Shown here piece after piece: positions 57,277 to 64,000 of a DNA stretch of 64,000 bases (position 1 is its first letter; every line of letters begins with the position of its first letter). A model generated the notes under the pieces. That model was not told the origin of the DNA. It did no database searches and saw only the letters and a program-made list of their open reading frames with translations. The position numbers and the translations under genes are program-made. Source of the DNA: Rhodobacterales bacterium LSUCC0031 (GTDB taxonomy: Bacteria; Pseudomonadota; Alphaproteobacteria; Rhodobacterales; Rhodobacteraceae); assembly GCA_015689735.1 (NCBI GenBank), contig WVSP01000002.1, forward strand, positions 62,001 to 126,000, given 5' to 3'.

Positions 57277-57366
57277 GGACAGTTGGCCGAGTGGTCGAAG
57301 GCGCACGCCTGGAAAGTGTGTAGGCGGGAAACCGTCTCGAGGGTTCGAATCCCTCACTGTCCGCCA
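57277..57366 (+). tRNA. tRNA-Ser (anticodon GGA)
   Basis: A type II cloverleaf with long variable arm. Acceptor GGACAGT pairs with ACTGTCC, D-arm GGCCGAGTGGTCGAAGGC, anticodon stem CACGC/GTGTG with loop CTGGAAA (anticodon GGA), variable arm around TAGGCGGGAAACCGTC, T-arm GGGTTCGAATCCC and encoded CCA. It marks the junction between the backbone and an AT-rich islet. Confidence 0.95.
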
Positions 57367-57908
57367 TATTATTTATCTATGTTATTGTTTTAAAGGTATA
57401 ATTTGTAGTTCATGGGCCTGTGATCCCCTAATTGACCCCCTATGGTATTGTTTGTGGAATGGGCGCTGTAGCCATTTTCGAATCCTCCCCCATCAAATCC
57501 CACAAACCACACTTCGCCGACCCCAGCCGGGGGGTGCCCCCCTAAATCGGCTCTTGATGACCCGCAACCCTATAAGTCGATTTTGGACGAACGTGGGGCG
57601 TCCCGGCACGTTAGGCTCCGCGCTGCTTTGGTAACTGGTGGTGCTGTTGGCAGCTCATGAATGCAGCGGAAATGTTTCGACATCATCTTTCCGTAGTAAC
57701 TTTCAAATGCCGAAAGCTGATCCCAAGCTGTAATCTTGGTATGGCAGAAGGTGCTGACTGTCCCTTCCTATTAACTTGAAACTTCCGTGAGAACGGACGA
57801 CATAGGCCACGAAGGTTTGAAGAAAAACGCCTTTGGGTCGATGACTAGGTCCGTACTTGCAGCAAGCAAGTTGATTAGTTGTGGATAGCTTTGGTGGAAG
57901 GAACACTT
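57367..57908 (+). other. Non-coding junction segment after tRNA-Ser
   Basis: About 540 bases with no convincing gene. The first part is AT-rich (ATTATTTATCTATGTTATTG), the middle has a GC-rich hairpin-like run near 57530 (GCCGGGGGGTGCCCCCC), and the composition is mixed, which suggests a mosaic of older fragments. No integrase or second copy of the tRNA 3' end was seen. The last bases give the glycosyltransferase ribosome site GGAAGGA. Confidence 0.55.
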
Positions 57909-58883
57909 ATGAGTCCGAAAGTTGCGGTGCTTTGTCAATTTAAGAATCCTGAGGCCTATTTTTCTATCTTTCACGCGCATCATTATCGTCTTTTTGACCG
58001 TTTTTTTTACATTGATCATCAATCAACCAAGGACTACCGAGGATTCGATTGCGGAAAAGCAACAGTATACCGAGCTAGTATAAAGAACTTTACTAAAGAT
58101 ATATTTTATGCTCGAATAATCGAAGAAATAAAGGCACACAGCGATATCGATTTTCTCTTTATTTTGGATATTGATGAATTTCTCCCGTTCTCTAATCGTA
58201 GTGACTTTGATAAATTTCTTTTAAATTACCGCAATTGGGCAGTTGGAACCTTATATTGGCGAAATGGATTTCCTCAAAACTTTGAGGAGCTGAGCGATTG
58301 CCCGCCGCTGTTGGTGCAAAGCATTCCGGGGAAAACTAAGAAGTTGTTCTATAACCTGAAGCGGCTCGGAAGTTTTTTTCCTCGTGAGGGCAATCATAAC
58401 GCCGAGTACTCGTTTCTAGGTCAAACTTGGCTACAGGCCCGTCCACGGAGAAAAAAATCCTCTGTCGGCTTGATTCATTTGCCATTGGTCTCCAAAGAGC
58501 AGATTTTTCAAAAAACGAATGAATTCCCCTCAGATTATTTTTCGGCGAAGTTGGGTGTAGAAGTTAGCGCGTTAATCTTGGATCTCACGACCCATGAAGT
58601 TCTCAATATTATTGGAAACTACCGAGCCAATGAGTTTGTAACTTATGGGCCATCAGATTTTGAGCCAATAGTGTTATTTTCTGGAATAAATGAACATGTA
58701 AGGTCCATTGATCAAGCGGTTGAAGGATTGATTGTCGCGCGCTTTACCGATGCAGATGAGTTAAATGAAAGTCAAGTTGCCTCTTTGCGTCGAGGTGGCT
58801 TTGGGCGTAAACGCAGTTTACTGCGCTTGATCGGCATAGATGGAGACAAAAAAATGAGCGTTGGTGGTGACTATGAAAGTTAA
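57909..58883 (+). CDS. Glycosyltransferase family 2-like protein (AT-rich islet)
   Basis: A 324-residue protein with a Glyco_tranf_2_4-like start (VAVLCQFKNPEAYFSIFHAH) and a DxD-type site in ILDIDEFLPF near residue 93, so a nucleotide-sugar is the likely substrate. The C-terminal half has no clear family and few membrane features. ATG 57909 has GGAAGGA seven bases before it. Base composition and codon use (many A/T-ending codons) differ strongly from all flanking genes. It overlaps the methyltransferase gene by 11 bases. Such pairs often decorate surface polysaccharides or protein. Confidence 0.75.
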   Translation: MSPKVAVLCQFKNPEAYFSIFHAHHYRLFDRFFYIDHQSTKDYRGFDCGKATVYRASIKNFTKDIFYARIIEEIKAHSDIDFLFILDIDEFLPFSNRSDFDKFLLNYRNWAVGTLYWRNGFPQNFEELSDCPPLLVQSIPGKTKKLFYNLKRLGSFFPREGNHNAEYSFLGQTWLQARPRRKKSSVGLIHLPLVSKEQIFQKTNEFPSDYFSAKLGVEVSALILDLTTHEVLNIIGNYRANEFVTYGPSDFEPIVLFSGINEHVRSIDQAVEGLIVARFTDADELNESQVASLRRGGFGRKRSLLRLIGIDGDKKMSVGGDYES

Positions 58884-59616
58884 AGATATAAATCGCGCCC
58901 GAAAAAATTTCCTTTACTTATTTCGTACTGGGGCAAGTGCTAAGGTATTGAAGTTATTTTGCCATTTTCGATTTATGAAGTTTAATTTGATTCATTCTGC
59001 GAGGGATCGACATTCTCTTTTCTTGAAATTTATTTCGGAACGATCATTTTCGCATAATTGGTTCATGGCAAACATCTATATTTGGCATTACTTTTCAAAA
59101 TATTACGATTTTTCGCGCGCTGAGAGGATCCTAGAAATAGGTAGCTGGCAGGGTATGTCGACTTGTTTTTTAGCGTTAAATTTTCCAAATGCGAAGATCG
59201 ATTGTGTCGATACTTGGGCCGGTGCTGACGAGCATCAGTCGGGGCATGCTGCAAGCTCGAATGTTCTTGAAAGTGTTGAAAGTATTTTTGATCAGAATAC
59301 TGAAGATTTTTCTCATCGAATTAAGAAATACAAAATGAGTTCTCTTGAGTTTTTATCATGCTCATCTTGTCAAAATGGATATGATTTAATTTACATTGAT
59401 GGTTCGCACAGATCTGAGGATGTCTTGCTTGACGCTTTTCTTGCGTTGCGACTTGTTAAAAGTGGGGGTATTGTTGTTTTCGATGATTTCTTGTGGCGTT
59501 ACTATCGCGATGAACAACAGAATCCGGCAGCGGCAATAAATTTCTTTTTAAGGCAAAAAGCCGATCACATCGAACTCTTGTTCGTCGATGGTCAAGTTGT
59601 TATCCGAAAAAAATAA
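58873..59616 (+). CDS. Class I SAM-dependent methyltransferase (Methyltransf_24-like, AT-rich islet)
   Basis: A 247-residue methyltransferase. The SAM-binding motif ILEIGSWQGMSTCFLALNFP near residue 85 is followed by the acidic loop IDCVDTWAG and a second YDLIYIDGSHRSEDVLLDA near residue 170 with GGIVVFDDFLW. The N-terminal 70 residues are basic and AT-rich coded. ATG 58873 overlaps the glycosyltransferase by 11 bases, so the two are expressed together. It probably acts on the same glycan or metabolite; the acceptor is unknown. Confidence 0.78.
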   Translation: MKVKDINRARKNFLYLFRTGASAKVLKLFCHFRFMKFNLIHSARDRHSLFLKFISERSFSHNWFMANIYIWHYFSKYYDFSRAERILEIGSWQGMSTCFLALNFPNAKIDCVDTWAGADEHQSGHAASSNVLESVESIFDQNTEDFSHRIKKYKMSSLEFLSCSSCQNGYDLIYIDGSHRSEDVLLDAFLALRLVKSGGIVVFDDFLWRYYRDEQQNPAAAINFFLRQKADHIELLFVDGQVVIRKK

Positions 59617-59674
59617 GGTGAAATGTTTGCTTAACCCATCGGTTCTAAATCCATTTATGAGTGGAGAGAAGGTT

Positions 59675-59728
59675 ATGATATTTTCAAAAATTGGGAACGA
59701 TTCTTCGAGTTCGCTGGAACGACAGTGA
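59675..59728 (+). pseudogene. Short gene start cut by the IS3-family element
   Basis: ATG 59675 follows GGAGAGAAGG and encodes 17 AT-rich residues, MIFSKIGNDSSSSLERQ, then hits a TGA that is the first triplet of the left inverted repeat (59726-59728). The third islet gene seems to begin here and be disrupted by the insertion. No matching remainder is obvious to the right of the element. Confidence 0.45.
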
Positions 59729-59752
59729 GCTGCTCCCCGAAAATCGGACAGT
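59726..59752 (+). repeat. IS left inverted repeat
   Basis: Starts TGAGCTGCTCCCCGAAAATC and ends GGACAGT; pairs with the right repeat in about 20 of 27 positions. Confidence 0.8.
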
Positions 59753-59806
59753 GACGTAAGCTACGATCTGACGTCTGCTGGTCTCCAAGAACGAGGAGAT
59801 CAGAAG

Positions 59807-60100
59807 ATGAAGAAACGCAGGAACCATGACGCTGGGTTCAAAGCTCGTGTGGCGCTGGAAGCCGTGAAGGGCGAGCGCACGGTGTCGGAGCTGGCCGCCG
59901 AATATGGCGTGCATCCGACGATGATCCACCAGTGGAAGAAGTCTCTTTTAGACGGCGCAGCCGACATCTTTGAACGGGGCGGTAAGAAGGCGCCGGAGAT
60001 CGATGAGGAGACGGTGCGGTCACTGCATGCCAAAATCGGGGAGCTGGCTGTGGCCAACGATTTTTTGTCCAGAAAGCTCAAGCCTTGGACCGGCAGGTGA
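59807..60100 (+). CDS. IS3-family transposase OrfA
   Basis: A 97-residue protein with the IS3 OrfA helix-turn-helix: KKRRNHDAGFKARVALEAVK, then TVSELAAEYGVHPTMIHQWK, with the leucine-zipper-like helix in ETVRSLHAKIGELAVANDFL. It binds the inverted repeats. ATG 59807 has GAGGAG upstream. The final residues LKPWTGR come after the slippery site and would not be in the fused transposase. It stops at 60100, while OrfB is in the same frame only because of a 4-bp duplication. Confidence 0.88.
   Translation: MKKRRNHDAGFKARVALEAVKGERTVSELAAEYGVHPTMIHQWKKSLLDGAADIFERGGKKAPEIDEETVRSLHAKIGELAVANDFLSRKLKPWTGR
60061..60067 (+). other. Programmed -1 frameshift slippery heptamer TTTTTTG
   Basis: In the OrfA frame the codons read GAT TTT TTG, so T TTT TTG is a correctly phased X XXY YYZ heptamer. 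A -1 slip would read GTC CAG AAA GCT CAA onward into RQVRRKMID. The site is in the usual position for IS3 elements. Confidence 0.65.
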
Positions 60101-60112
60101 GGCGCAAGATGA

Positions 60113-60955
60113 TTGATTGATAAAAACCATCCAAGCCTGTCGGTCGGGGCGCAATGCCGCCTGCTGTCGATCGCGCGCTCGTCGTTTTACTATGAGCTGA
60201 TGGGCGAGACGGCCATGAACCTCGACCTTATGGTGGTGATCGACAAGCAATTCCTCGAGACACCGTTTTACGGCGTGCAGCAGATGACATGGCACCTGCG
60301 CAACGAGGGGTATGTCGTGAACTACAAGCGCATTCGTCGACTGATGCGGCTTATGCGCTTGATGCCGATTTACCAGAAGCCCGATACCAGCAGGCCCGCG
60401 AAGGGGCATAAGACCTACCCCTATCTGCTGGGAGGGCTGCGCGTGGAACGGCCCAATCAGGTCTGGTGTGCCGACATCACCTACCTGCCCATGCGCCGCG
60501 GCTTCCTCTATCTGGTCGCCATCATGGACTGGTATACCCGGAAGGTGCTGGCCTGGCGGATATCCAACACGCTGGAGGCTGACTTCTGCGTCGAGGCGTT
60601 GAACGAGGCGATCCACAAGTTCGGCCCGCCCGAGATCATGAACACCGACCAAGGCAGCCAGTTCACATCATTCGCCTGGACGGATAGGCTGAAAAGGGTC
60701 GGCACCCGGATCTCGATGGATGGCAAAGGACGCTGCATCGACAACATCTTCATTGAGCGTCTCTGGCGCTCCTTGAAGTATGAATGCGTCTATCTGCACG
60801 CCTGGGAAACCGGATCGCAGGCACGGGTCGGCATCGGGCGCTGGATCACCTTCTACAACCACCAGCGCCCCCACACTGCCCATGGCGGACAGCCGCCCGC
60901 CGTGGTCTACTTTAACACAATCCAAACCGATCAGCAGGTGCAGGCAGTAGCTTAA
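60113..60955 (+). pseudogene. IS3-family transposase OrfB, DDE core, probably frameshifted at its start
   Basis: A 280-residue DDE transposase segment with the three acidic residues in WCADITYLP, NTDQGSQFTS and FIERLWRSLKYECV (DD35E spacing). The natural start is probably ATG 60109 (KMIDKNHP as in relatives), but ATTGATTG is a 4-bp tandem duplication, so ATG ATT GAT is followed by TGA and the OrfB frame is shifted. The -1 fusion would also end there. Only a weak TTG at 60113 would reopen the frame, so I treat the element as probably inactive. The rest of the frame is intact. Confidence 0.7.
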
Positions 60956-60967
60956 ATCACACTGGAA

Positions 60968-60994
60968 ACTGTCCAAGAGTTGGGGAGTAGCTTA
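60968..60994 (-). repeat. IS right inverted repeat
   Basis: Its reverse complement starts TAAGCTACTCCCCAACTCTT and ends GGACAGT, closely matching the left repeat. Confidence 0.8.
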
Positions 60995-61095
60995 GTTGGG
61001 CGATTGCCGCCTCACCGCCTTCCGTTCATTCCTCACTGGGTGAACAATCCACTGCGAACGCACAGCGCATGGTTGCGCGGGACAGTCAAATGGGG

Positions 61096-61908
61096 TCAGC
61101 GAAAGCGGATTGGCAGGTTGAATGCATAGCTCGCTTCGCGCAGCGCATCGGGGGCGGCGGGAAAGCGTCCAACGCGGCGCACGGCGTCCATGGCCGCTGC
61201 GTCCAAACCTGGATTGCCGGACGAGCGCGCCACGCCAAGCGCGCCCAAGCTGCCATCGCGACTGATCCTCAGCGACAGCGTTACTTGGCCCGCGGCATTG
61301 ACGCGCGGGCGCGCGCGCTCGATCCGGGCCATGATCTGTCCACCCCAGCTGGCCATCAGGCTTTGGCGTTGGGCTTGGCTAAGGCCGTGGTCTTGGGGCG
61401 ATGCAGCGGGTGCGCTGCCGCGTGTCGAACCGCCGCCTTGGCCTTGCGCCTGCCGTGCCACCTGCGGGTTGGAAGCCGGGGCTGTTGTAACCGCCGGGCG
61501 GGTCACGGGGCGCGGCGATTGTGCAAGGGCATTTGCGCTCAGCGGCGGTGGCGGGGGTTCGGTCATGTCGGGCGCAAGCGGCGGACCATCGGCAGAGGGC
61601 AGGATCGGCGCATCGGGCAAGGCGAAACCTTGCGGCGCCTGTCGGGCGATGGGCAGTGACGGTGCCTGCATGGCGGCGATCTGAGGTGCCTGCATCGGGG
61701 CGGGGCTTGTCACGGCTTGTGGCGGCGTGGCCCATTGCGCCGCCAAGGCGGCCATGCTGTCGGGGGCCGCGACCAGCGTGATGCTGTCGTTGCCGCCTTG
61801 GCCCATCGCTTGCGGGCCAGCGCTGATGTCGTTGAACCCGACCATCACCCCTGCGTGTACGGCGGCCGAAAACCCCAGAAAGGCCACGATTTCGGCCATC
61901 CGCCTCAT
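61096..61908 (-). CDS. tonB: TonB family energy transducer
   Basis: A 270-residue protein carrying proton-motive energy to outer-membrane receptors. One N-terminal membrane helix (IVAFLGFSAAVHAGVMVGF), a long Pro/Ala/Gln-rich spacer, and a C-terminal TonB domain beginning GGQIMARIERARPRVNAAGQ and VTLSLRISRDGSLGALGVAR. The start overlaps the second exbD stop by four bases. It is the last gene of the iron-uptake series and ends 102 bases from the IS element, in GC-rich backbone sequence. Confidence 0.88.
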   Translation of the reverse strand: MRRMAEIVAFLGFSAAVHAGVMVGFNDISAGPQAMGQGGNDSITLVAAPDSMAALAAQWATPPQAVTSPAPMQAPQIAAMQAPSLPIARQAPQGFALPDAPILPSADGPPLAPDMTEPPPPPLSANALAQSPRPVTRPAVTTAPASNPQVARQAQGQGGGSTRGSAPAASPQDHGLSQAQRQSLMASWGGQIMARIERARPRVNAAGQVTLSLRISRDGSLGALGVARSSGNPGLDAAAMDAVRRVGRFPAAPDALREASYAFNLPIRFR

Positions 61909-62291
61909 GGCTGCACCGTGATCAGGCGGATGTCGGTGATGCCGATCTGCGCCAGTCGTGGCAAAAGCCGCGCCAGATCCGCCGCCGGATAGGCCGCATC
62001 GGCCATGATCGGTAATGGCCCCCTGGGGCGTGCGGCGGCAAGGGTGGCCAAGGCGGCATCGCCCCTCGCATCGCCAAAGGCCAAAGTGCCATCCGCCCCG
62101 ATATAAAGCGTGTCGGGCTGCGGATCGCTACGCGCAGCGTCAGCCATAGGGGCCTTGATCGCAAGGGGCGGTGCTGGCGTAAGGCTCGCGGTCATCAAGA
62201 AGAAAACCAACAGTAGGAACACAACGTTGATCATTGGCACGATGGCGCGGTCTTGGGCCATGCGGGGTTTGCGGGGGGCGGCGAAGTTCAT
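61905..62291 (-). CDS. exbD: ExbD/TolR family biopolymer transporter (second copy)
   Basis: A 128-residue proton-channel subunit. The transmembrane helix with the functional acidic/polar position is in IVPMINVVFLLLVFFLMTAS; here Asn replaces the usual Asp in the PM(I/L)D motif. The periplasmic part ends in ITDIRLITVQP. Start and stop both overlap neighbours by four bases (ATGA). It follows the first exbD and probably forms a mixed complex with it and ExbB. Confidence 0.86.
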   Translation of the reverse strand: MNFAAPRKPRMAQDRAIVPMINVVFLLLVFFLMTASLTPAPPLAIKAPMADAARSDPQPDTLYIGADGTLAFGDARGDAALATLAAARPRGPLPIMADAAYPAADLARLLPRLAQIGITDIRLITVQP

Positions 62292-62674
62292 GGCGCCACC
62301 AAGACGAGATGAGTGAACCCCGCCCCCTCCAAGATCGCCATGACATCGAGCAGGCGTTGCATGGCGACACCCTCGTCGCTGCGGATCATGACCGGGTCTG
62401 ACATCGTCTCTGTCAGGCGGGATAGCGCCAGTTCCAGCGCCGCGGGTGCGATGGGCTGACCGTTCAGCTGTAGCTCCGTTTCTCCGATCTGCACCACCCG
62501 TGGTGGCCCTTGCCATGCGGTGGTGGTGCCACCCGCGATCCGCAGGTCAAGCGCGCCCTCCTGCCCGAAGCGCGCGGCCAGCATGAAGAACACCAACAGC
62601 AAGAACACCACATCGATCATCGGCGTGAGGCTGGGCCTGCGGCGCGGCCGGGGTGGGGCGAAGCGGAAACTCAT
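62288..62674 (-). CDS. exbD: ExbD/TolR family biopolymer transporter (first copy)
   Basis: A 128-residue proton-channel subunit. The membrane helix SLTPMIDVVFLLLVFFMLAA keeps the conserved Asp, unlike the second copy. The C-terminal MAILEGAGFTHLVLVAP is family-like. Both ends overlap neighbouring genes by four bases. It has the basic start PPRPRRRPSL. Confidence 0.9.
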   Translation of the reverse strand: MSFRFAPPRPRRRPSLTPMIDVVFLLLVFFMLAARFGQEGALDLRIAGGTTTAWQGPPRVVQIGETELQLNGQPIAPAALELALSRLTETMSDPVMIRSDEGVAMQRLLDVMAILEGAGFTHLVLVAP

Positions 62675-63303
62675 CGCGCGCGCGCGCCCCCACGGGCAAA
62701 GATGCGGGTCGCGTCATCCTCCATCTCGGCCTGCAACCTGTCGGCAATGCTGTCGAACCATGTGAGCGCGGCGGCGGCGGGGATTGCTACCGCCATGCCT
62801 GCCGCGGTGGTCAAGAGCGCCTCCCAGATGCCACCGGCCAGCGTGGCGGGGTCGGTTTGTCCGCCGGCCTCCTGTAGGGCCTGAAAGGCCGCGATCATCC
62901 CCAGAACCGTGCCAAGCAACCCCAGAAGCGGCGCGATCGTCACGATGAGGTCAAGTGGCCGCAGCCCACCGCGCAGCTCGGCCAATAGCGCGCGGGCGAT
63001 GCGCGTGGTTTCCTCGCGCGCGGCCTCTGGTGTCAGGCGCGTGTCGCCATGCGCGCTCATCGCCGCATGGGCAAGGCGCGCGCGCACCGAAGCGCGGGGG
63101 GCAAGCTGGGCAATGGCCGCATCCGCCGCGCCATCCTGCCAGAGCGCAATGGCCGATGCGGTGACACGCCCGCCCGCCCAAGCGCCCATCGCCGACAGGC
63201 GGTAAAGCTTCCACAAGATCAGCGCGAGGGTCAGCACCGACAGGGCCGAAATGGCCCAGATCACCGGGCCGCCTCGCGTCATAAGATCGGGGAGTTCGGT
63301 CAT
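62671..63303 (-). CDS. exbB: ExbB/TolQ/MotA family proton channel
   Basis: A 210-residue membrane protein with three helices. The first is at residues 11-31 (GGPVIWAISALSVLTLALIL), the other two in LDLIVTIAPLLGLLGTVLGM and ALLTTAAGMAVAIPAAAALT. The pore Thr/Pro positions are conserved. It precedes two exbD genes and tonB with ATGA overlaps and follows the ABC ATPase gene the same way. Confidence 0.9.
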   Translation of the reverse strand: MTELPDLMTRGGPVIWAISALSVLTLALILWKLYRLSAMGAWAGGRVTASAIALWQDGAADAAIAQLAPRASVRARLAHAAMSAHGDTRLTPEAAREETTRIARALLAELRGGLRPLDLIVTIAPLLGLLGTVLGMIAAFQALQEAGGQTDPATLAGGIWEALLTTAAGMAVAIPAAAALTWFDSIADRLQAEMEDDATRIFARGGARAR

Positions 63304-64000
63304 CGCAGCACCTCGAGCGGTTGGAAGACAAGCCCGTCGGGGCCATCGGTCATATACGCGGTAATGCCAAAGACCTGTGCAAGGTTCTCGCGCGTTAGCA
63401 CGCTATCGGGCGGCCCATCGGCATGGATGCGGCCCCGGTGCATCAAGATCAGCCGTGTGCAATGGCGTGCAGCGAGCCCCAGATCATGCAGCGAAACCAT
63501 CACCGCCTTGCCCCCCGCCGCCAAGCGGCCAAAGGCCGACATGGTGGCGATCTGGTGGCCGGGATCGAGGCCCGCGATGGGTTCGTCCGCCATGATCAGG
63601 GGCGTGTCTTGGGCAAGCGCGCGCGCGATCAGCACGCGCGCCTGTTCACCGCCCGACAGCGCGGTAGCGGCCCGCTTTGCGAAGCCGGAAAGATCCATCG
63701 TCGCCAAGGCATCCGCCACGGCGGCATGGTCGGCGGCACTTGGGCGCTGGCCGCTTGCCAGATGCGGGATGCGGCCCAGCATCACCAGCGTCTCGACGGC
63801 GATGGGCCAGGCGATCTCGCGCGATTGGGGCAGCCACGCGGCATGGCGCGCGCGCGCCGCAGGGGTCATCGCGGTGAGCGAGGATTGGCCGCGATGCGGC
63901 AAAAGCCCCAGCGCGCCGCGCATCAAGGTGGTCTTGCCTGCACCATTGGGGCCGATCAGCCCGACCAATTCACCCGCGCCGATCGCAAGCGTGGCGGCAT
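63300..64000 (-). CDS. Iron/heme-type ABC transporter ATP-binding protein (5' partial)
   Basis: The C-terminal 233 residues or so of an ABC ATPase; the frame is open past the right edge. Walker A is GLIGPNGAGKTT, the signature is ALSGGEQARVLIARAL, Walker B is LIMADEPIAGLDPG and the switch His is in VSLHDLGLAARH. The closest pattern is the FecE/HmuV group for iron complexes or heme, supported by the exbB-exbD-exbD-tonB genes that follow with overlapping ends. The permease and receptor genes must be beyond the window. Confidence 0.88.
   Translation of the reverse strand, partial: AATLAIGAGELVGLIGPNGAGKTTLMRGALGLLPHRGQSSLTAMTPAARARHAAWLPQSREIAWPIAVETLVMLGRIPHLASGQRPSAADHAAVADALATMDLSGFAKRAATALSGGEQARVLIARALAQDTPLIMADEPIAGLDPGHQIATMSAFGRLAAGGKAVMVSLHDLGLAARHCTRLILMHRGRIHADGPPDSVLTRENLAQVFGITAYMTDGPDGLVFQPLEVLR

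Follow-up and report, generated by a model that had tools for sequence, protein, structure and literature searches.

Genomic islands of the kind mapped by Islander have a tRNA or tmRNA gene at their start, encode an integrase and carry a displaced piece of the tRNA gene at the far end (PMC4383910). Here we compare with them an AT-rich islet of Rhodobacterales bacterium LSUCC0031 (2.98 Mb of genome sequence, assembled in 7 contigs), located in a stretch of 64,000 nucleotides of contig WVSP01000002.1 (positions 62,001 to 126,000; hereafter the window, whose own numbering is used for the features). The islet follows a tRNA-Ser gene and contains two overlapping genes, one glycosyltransferase-like and one encoding an S-adenosylmethionine (SAM)-dependent methyltransferase, before an insertion sequence (IS) of the IS3 family and a cobalamin-uptake operon. 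The likeness to the Islander islands is that the foreign DNA begins exactly at the tRNA 3' end and that relatives have integrases at that place, whereas the islet itself has neither an integrase nor a displaced tRNA fragment (PMC4383910). In general usage, tRNA islands are recognized by atypical composition and patchy presence in relatives, and the islet displays both. We consider it probable that the islet is the leftover cargo of a horizontally acquired element at a tRNA-Ser hotspot, the far end of which was replaced by the IS and a relocated operon.

The composition break at tRNA-Ser(GGA)

Synteny with the relatives stops at the 3' end of the tRNA-Ser gene (anticodon GGA; 57277-57366, forward strand, predicted by ARAGORN and covered at 57277-57363 by the Rfam tRNA model). 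In 1-kb windows, the GC content of 0.55-0.60 just left of this gene falls to 0.389 near 58.5 kb and rises to 0.681 at 61-62 kb, the minimum elsewhere in the 64 kb being 0.554, which bears out the abrupt change noted in a preliminary description of this DNA. The A/T-ending codon use noted there is equally clear, as the GC content at third codon positions (GC3) is 0.388 in the glycosyltransferase-like gene and 0.347 in the methyltransferase gene, that is, 5.8 and 6.5 standard deviations (SD) below the mean of the reference open reading frames (ORFs; mean 0.707, SD 0.055, minimum 0.521). Similarly, a codon-adaptation-like index reaches 0.501 and 0.487, respectively, versus a reference mean of 0.718 and a minimum of 0.564. 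The reference consists of 38 mechanically picked ORFs, rather than curated genes, of at least 200 amino acids and located left of tRNA-Ser; both islet genes are outside its range, and the gap is far outside chance. Between the tRNA and the first gene lies a leader (57367-57908, forward strand, GC 0.485) that holds no recognizable gene and may represent the left end of the element that was lost. A DNA search with the islet matched 3 of 394 family genomes, namely its own and two others by about 30 bases in the gene part.

The tRNA-Ser site in related genomes

Each of the 12 other genus genomes carries the left flank of the islet, and the match extends to the 3' end of tRNA-Ser in 11 of them, the contig of the remaining one (G012) stopping inside the tRNA. 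Right-hand tails of at least 388 bases could be read in 10 genomes, the tail of G007 (46 bases) being left out. The islet is absent from all 10, with matching pieces of at most 27 bases and E-values of 0.008 or worse, so the comparison with sister genomes proposed in the preliminary description did not find the same genes at the same place in all close relatives. When the tails were compared with each other, G001 and G006 had 0.7 kb in common, and short common pieces were seen in G002, G003/G004 and G008/G010. Gene content, judged without G010 and G011 because of their short tails, includes a DUF5131 gene in G001 and G006, an AcrB-type pump in G002, a signalling protein in G003, a transposase fragment in G004 and a dehydrogenase in G005. 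In G008, a tyrosine integrase with three Pfam domains above cut-off is encoded directly after tRNA-Ser, and in G009 the tRNA is followed by an integrase of another type (DUF6538 above cut-off, Int_N below), truncated by the contig end. Given the variable tails, the absence of the islet from the readable ones and these two integrase genes, the tRNA-Ser 3' end behaves as an insertion hotspot in the genus. This kind of event is well known, and as a hotspot where genes are gained and reshuffled the site would be fairly ordinary; what is documented here is one tRNA-Ser gene with a right side that differs in most members of the genus and with an integrase still present in two.

Two further observations concern tRNA-Ser genes. 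In G008, an element with an integrase and several small genes occupies the same tRNA-Ser (L044:3169-9017). In the genome under study, a second tRNA-Ser gene (GCT) presents a similar picture (L077, C4:60000-79000), with an AT-rich ORF of 840 amino acids matching alginate-lyase and peptidoglycan-binding families, the other full copy of the IS3-family element and an integrase match at C4:62548.

The two genes of the islet

The first gene (57909-58883, forward strand) encodes a protein of 324 amino acids resembling Glyco_tranf_2_4. Its LDxDEF motif is invariant across the alignments made of the protein and its relatives and is an acidic motif of the DxD type expected in Glyco_tranf_2_4. The assignment as a glycosyltransferase is based on this conserved motif and on the relative in L277, which clears the cut-off of PF13704 (Glyco_tranf_2_4) with 35.2 bits. 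Within the genus, the gene is present in 1 of 13 genomes, its own, and was not found in the 12 others at an E-value of 0.001 (three of these genomes being less than 85% complete); in the family it occurs in 7 of 295 genomes including its own, the other six matches being weak (24-29% identity). A single-sequence search retrieved no match in viral contigs, and there was none among 72,556 plasmid records, among 50,697 phage records or, at an E-value of 1, among solved structures. The sole approximately full-length relatives found, with 32-33% identity over residues 4-267, are encoded on four IMG/VR contigs (L277, L278, L279, and L283). They have the LDxDEF motif and a length comparable to that of the islet protein, but their genes are GC-rich (about 0.60) instead of AT-rich, and no methyltransferase relative adjoins them in L277-L279. 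These IMG/VR contigs span 32-74 kb. Phage-type neighbours occur in one case examined, where only 94 bases separate a glycosyltransferase relative from the next gene, whose matches are to phage families of endolysin and DarB-like antirestriction/virion proteins (L282:2976-6806).

The second gene (58873-59616, forward strand; 247 amino acids) overlaps the first by 11 bases, its ATG being at 58873, and its product scores 70.8 bits against PF13578 (Methyltransf_24), above the curated cut-off of 26.3. In the 12 other genomes of the genus there are only two matches, both weak and partial, and the same plasmid and phage records yielded nine (28-35% identity) and four matches, respectively. A single-sequence search recovered no close homologue in genome contigs. 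The alignment search confirmed at least 512 relatives in genome contigs, distributed in many phyla, and at least 472 in viral contigs (80 kept in each case), with identities, among the matches listed, of up to 44% in bacterial and up to 41% in viral contigs. In three hand-picked loci (L083, L085, and L096), relatives adjoin glycosyltransferase or nucleotide-sugar genes according to Pfam, and the neighbourhood in L105 resembles that in L085 by eye. An arrangement comparable to that of the islet is on Lichenihabitans and Neorhizobium plasmids (L083 and L085), where a methyltransferase with 28-35% identity is encoded directly after a glycosyltransferase gene, although these glycosyltransferases belong to other families (group 1 and family 61).

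The cobalamin-uptake operon and its probable former location

According to the preliminary description, the GC-rich backbone resumes to the right of the IS. This does not hold, as the DNA there is an operon for cobalamin (vitamin B12) uptake that most likely stood elsewhere in the ancestor, and the islet, judged from sequence comparison, ends at a rearrangement junction. The operon adjoins an ATP-binding cassette (ABC)-transporter block in G008, G010, and G012, and another gene of that neighbourhood in G005. In the genome under study, the ABC block is located at C1:190293-194693 (L075) without the operon, and a spacer of 31 bases joins it to the gene located after the operon in G008. Over 58 bases, this C1 junction can still be aligned with that between the ABC block and tonB in G008, the alignment reaching approximately the last two codons of tonB, and the operon copy in the window carries its own version of part of the same stretch. 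The ABC block, the arrangement in the relatives and this vestige are the reasons for placing the ancestral operon on C1. Therefore, the right flank of the islet cannot show an empty site. The operon is 81.5% identical to that of G008, a value similar to those of the flanking DNA (79-85%), as would fit an operon moved or copied inside the genome; alternatively, a relative's copy might have replaced it. Further to the right, a response-regulator and kinase block begins at about C2:130385; in G004, the genome of which is a single contig, about 0.84 Mb separates this block from tRNA-Ser. The junction illustrates how a small pair of foreign genes and a vitamin-uptake operon that changed place can come to be fused.

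The operon extends from 61071 to about 4.1 kb past the window (L079), encoding TonB, ExbD-like proteins, ExbB, an ABC ATPase, a FecCD permease, a periplasmic binding protein and a TonB-dependent receptor, headed outside the window by a cobalamin riboswitch (137 bits). Within the window, all its genes are on the reverse strand: the tonB-like gene, last of the operon (61096-61908, profile match), two ExbD-like genes recognized by eye (61905-62291 and 62288-62674), an ExbB-like gene (62671-63303, MotA_ExbB in Pfam) and the ABC ATPase gene (63300-64000, profile match), which runs past the window end. Two candidates related to the move were rejected: the rest of the islet is not at the old place of the operon, as C1:186500-206000 contains no AT-rich stretch, and recombination between IS copies was discarded as the cause of the relocation because there is no IS copy at the C1 place.

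The third frame and the insertion sequence

A third frame (59675-59725, forward strand) was read from the sequence after the methyltransferase gene, with an ATG at 59675 following a plausible ribosome-binding site and a start of 17 codons, closed by the first three bases of the IS (from 59726), which supply the stop codon. A third cargo gene may have followed the two-gene unit. The preliminary description saw in it a gene cut by the IS, and the frame does end there; a longer gene could not be confirmed, as no continuation is present in the 76 bases after the IS or in the operon. These 76 bases (60995-61070) are of unassigned origin, homology to the relatives starting at 61071.

The IS (59726-60994, forward strand) was delimited by BLAST (59726-60992), its final inverted-repeat base being at about 60994, and the product of its orfB scores 271 bits against the IS3-type transposase profile NF033516 (cut-off 160; the orfA part alone, 41.8). 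Comparison of its ends with 7 other copies shows terminal inverted repeats; no target duplication was seen by eye at this or the 7 other copies, which is uninformative for this IS. Similar IS3-family copies occur on alphaproteobacterial plasmids. The match ranked first, on the Roseivivax plasmid pTHAF197b_d (L248), is 84.2% identical in DNA along the full element and has comparable inverted-repeat ends. In two plasmid copies, this one included, orfA and orfB are in different frames, the arrangement required for fusions made by frameshifting. In contrast, in the window they share one frame and are split by two stops, and for this reason the copy is presumably inactive. Relative to the C4 copy, which is also altered nearby, four extra bases separate its orfA and orfB. 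The genome contains that one other full copy (C4, 90% identical), one decayed copy on C1 and a few fragments. In G002, the response-regulator block is preceded, at a distance of about 50 bases, by a remnant of 180 bases with the same kind of IS end (L272:12558-12737).

Evolutionary scenario and alternative explanations

In the scenario we favour, an element would have been acquired horizontally at the 3' end of tRNA-Ser(GGA), and its integrase and far attachment (att) site would have been lost since then. The remaining cargo would be a two-gene unit of a GT-A-type glycosyltransferase and a SAM-dependent methyltransferase, perhaps with a third gene after it, in which the former would transfer a sugar onto a glycan that is exported or located at the surface, and the latter would O-methylate a sugar of this glycan. 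This chemistry is plausible in view of the protein families and of the neighbourhoods in which some of the relatives occur; should a surface glycan be the substrate of the enzymes, the cargo could alter phage or host recognition. An IS3-family copy would have come to border the cargo and then decayed, and the native operon would have been moved or copied from beside the ABC block to the IS side, with loss of the original and replacement of the far end of the islet. The preliminary description had proposed a horizontally acquired surface-glycan locus, partly lost. Its horizontal acquisition agrees with the foreign composition, the other DNA in the tails of 10 relatives and the lack of the glycosyltransferase in the 12 genus genomes, and its surface-glycan part is plausible.

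Nevertheless, several observations weigh against this scenario. The sole match to the integrase family PF00589 on the contig of the window is about 308 kb from the islet, and a search of the 29.6 kb on the right-hand side, made at four stringencies, gave no further copy of the tRNA end that could be an att site, in agreement with the preliminary description. Without these two elements, site-specific integration is not demonstrated and the islet is not filed as a mapped tRNA island. In addition, gene order is fluid across the genus, as relatives also differ in the DNA that precedes the response-regulator block; therefore, the variable right side alone is no proof of a hotspot, and part of this variation may be general gene-order change. 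Regarding function, the methyltransferase is a solid Pfam member, but the glycosyltransferase scores 22.5 bits against PF13704, under the curated cut-off of 27.5, so that its assignment leans on the motif and on L277; two structure models of it, with mean predicted local distance difference test (pLDDT) values of 33.6 and 38.8, were not usable. Six of eight listed methyltransferase neighbourhoods display no obvious glycan gene by eye (neighbour genes having been scanned with Pfam in L096 only), which makes the surface-glycan reading weaker. Finally, the C1 vestige is short, with about nine of its aligned bases within tonB.

The cargo could alternatively be a phage moron, a glycosyltransferase and methyltransferase of lysogenic-conversion type from a decayed prophage once in tRNA-Ser. 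The viral provenance of the only full-length glycosyltransferase relatives (about 33% identity), the endolysin and DarB-like matches of the next gene in L282 and the many methyltransferase relatives in viral contigs fit this origin. However, no phage structural gene is visible in the islet, the glycosyltransferase has no match in the phage records, its relatives in L277-L279 have no methyltransferase beside them, and methyltransferase relatives are equally common in bacterial contigs and, among the matches listed, more similar there. Hence, we regard a moron origin as unlikely. The favoured scenario could also be extended, in that the tRNA-Ser hotspot would capture native operons too: the riboswitch-controlled operon would have been copied to the islet and the original then lost, leaving a core nutrient-uptake trait in a mobile-DNA hotspot, open to exchange from there. 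We rate this extension as quite unlikely.

That no integration at the tRNA occurred, and that a general rearrangement broke synteny there and brought in foreign DNA via homologous or IS-mediated recombination, seems decidedly unlikely to us: wherever the contig of a relative extends that far, in 11 cases, the left break coincides precisely with the tRNA 3' end, G008 and G009 have integrases at exactly that place, and the old site of the operon has no IS copy, even though the missing integrase and att site, the equally rearranged operon and response-regulator block and the IS bordering the islet would fit such a process. An assembly error at the islet-IS-operon junction is very improbable indeed. 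The assembly has 7 contigs and IS copies can mislead assemblers, but the IS in the window shares only 90% identity with the other full copy, and the old C1 site is continuous without the operon and has kept a vestige of the operon end.

Repeats in the leader

The leader contains a direct-repeat pair of period 12 (57421-57442, forward strand), detected by repeat statistics, whose members are candidate integrase arm-type sites. For 11 tails taken jointly, 0 of 1000 shuffles reached the observed statistic at period 12, and 2 of 1000 did so at any period of 8-20. Leaving out G003, the tail of which is related to that of G004, it was reached in 7/1000 and 89/1000, respectively, and in 44/1000 and 440/1000 when the window was also left out. 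Since the signal is weak without the related tail and the test was picked only after the repeats had been noticed, we grade these repeats as a hint only of arm-type sites. The leader also contains, at 57477-57485, a stretch resembling a tRNA T-loop (TTCGAATCC), which may be due to chance or be a trace of another att site.

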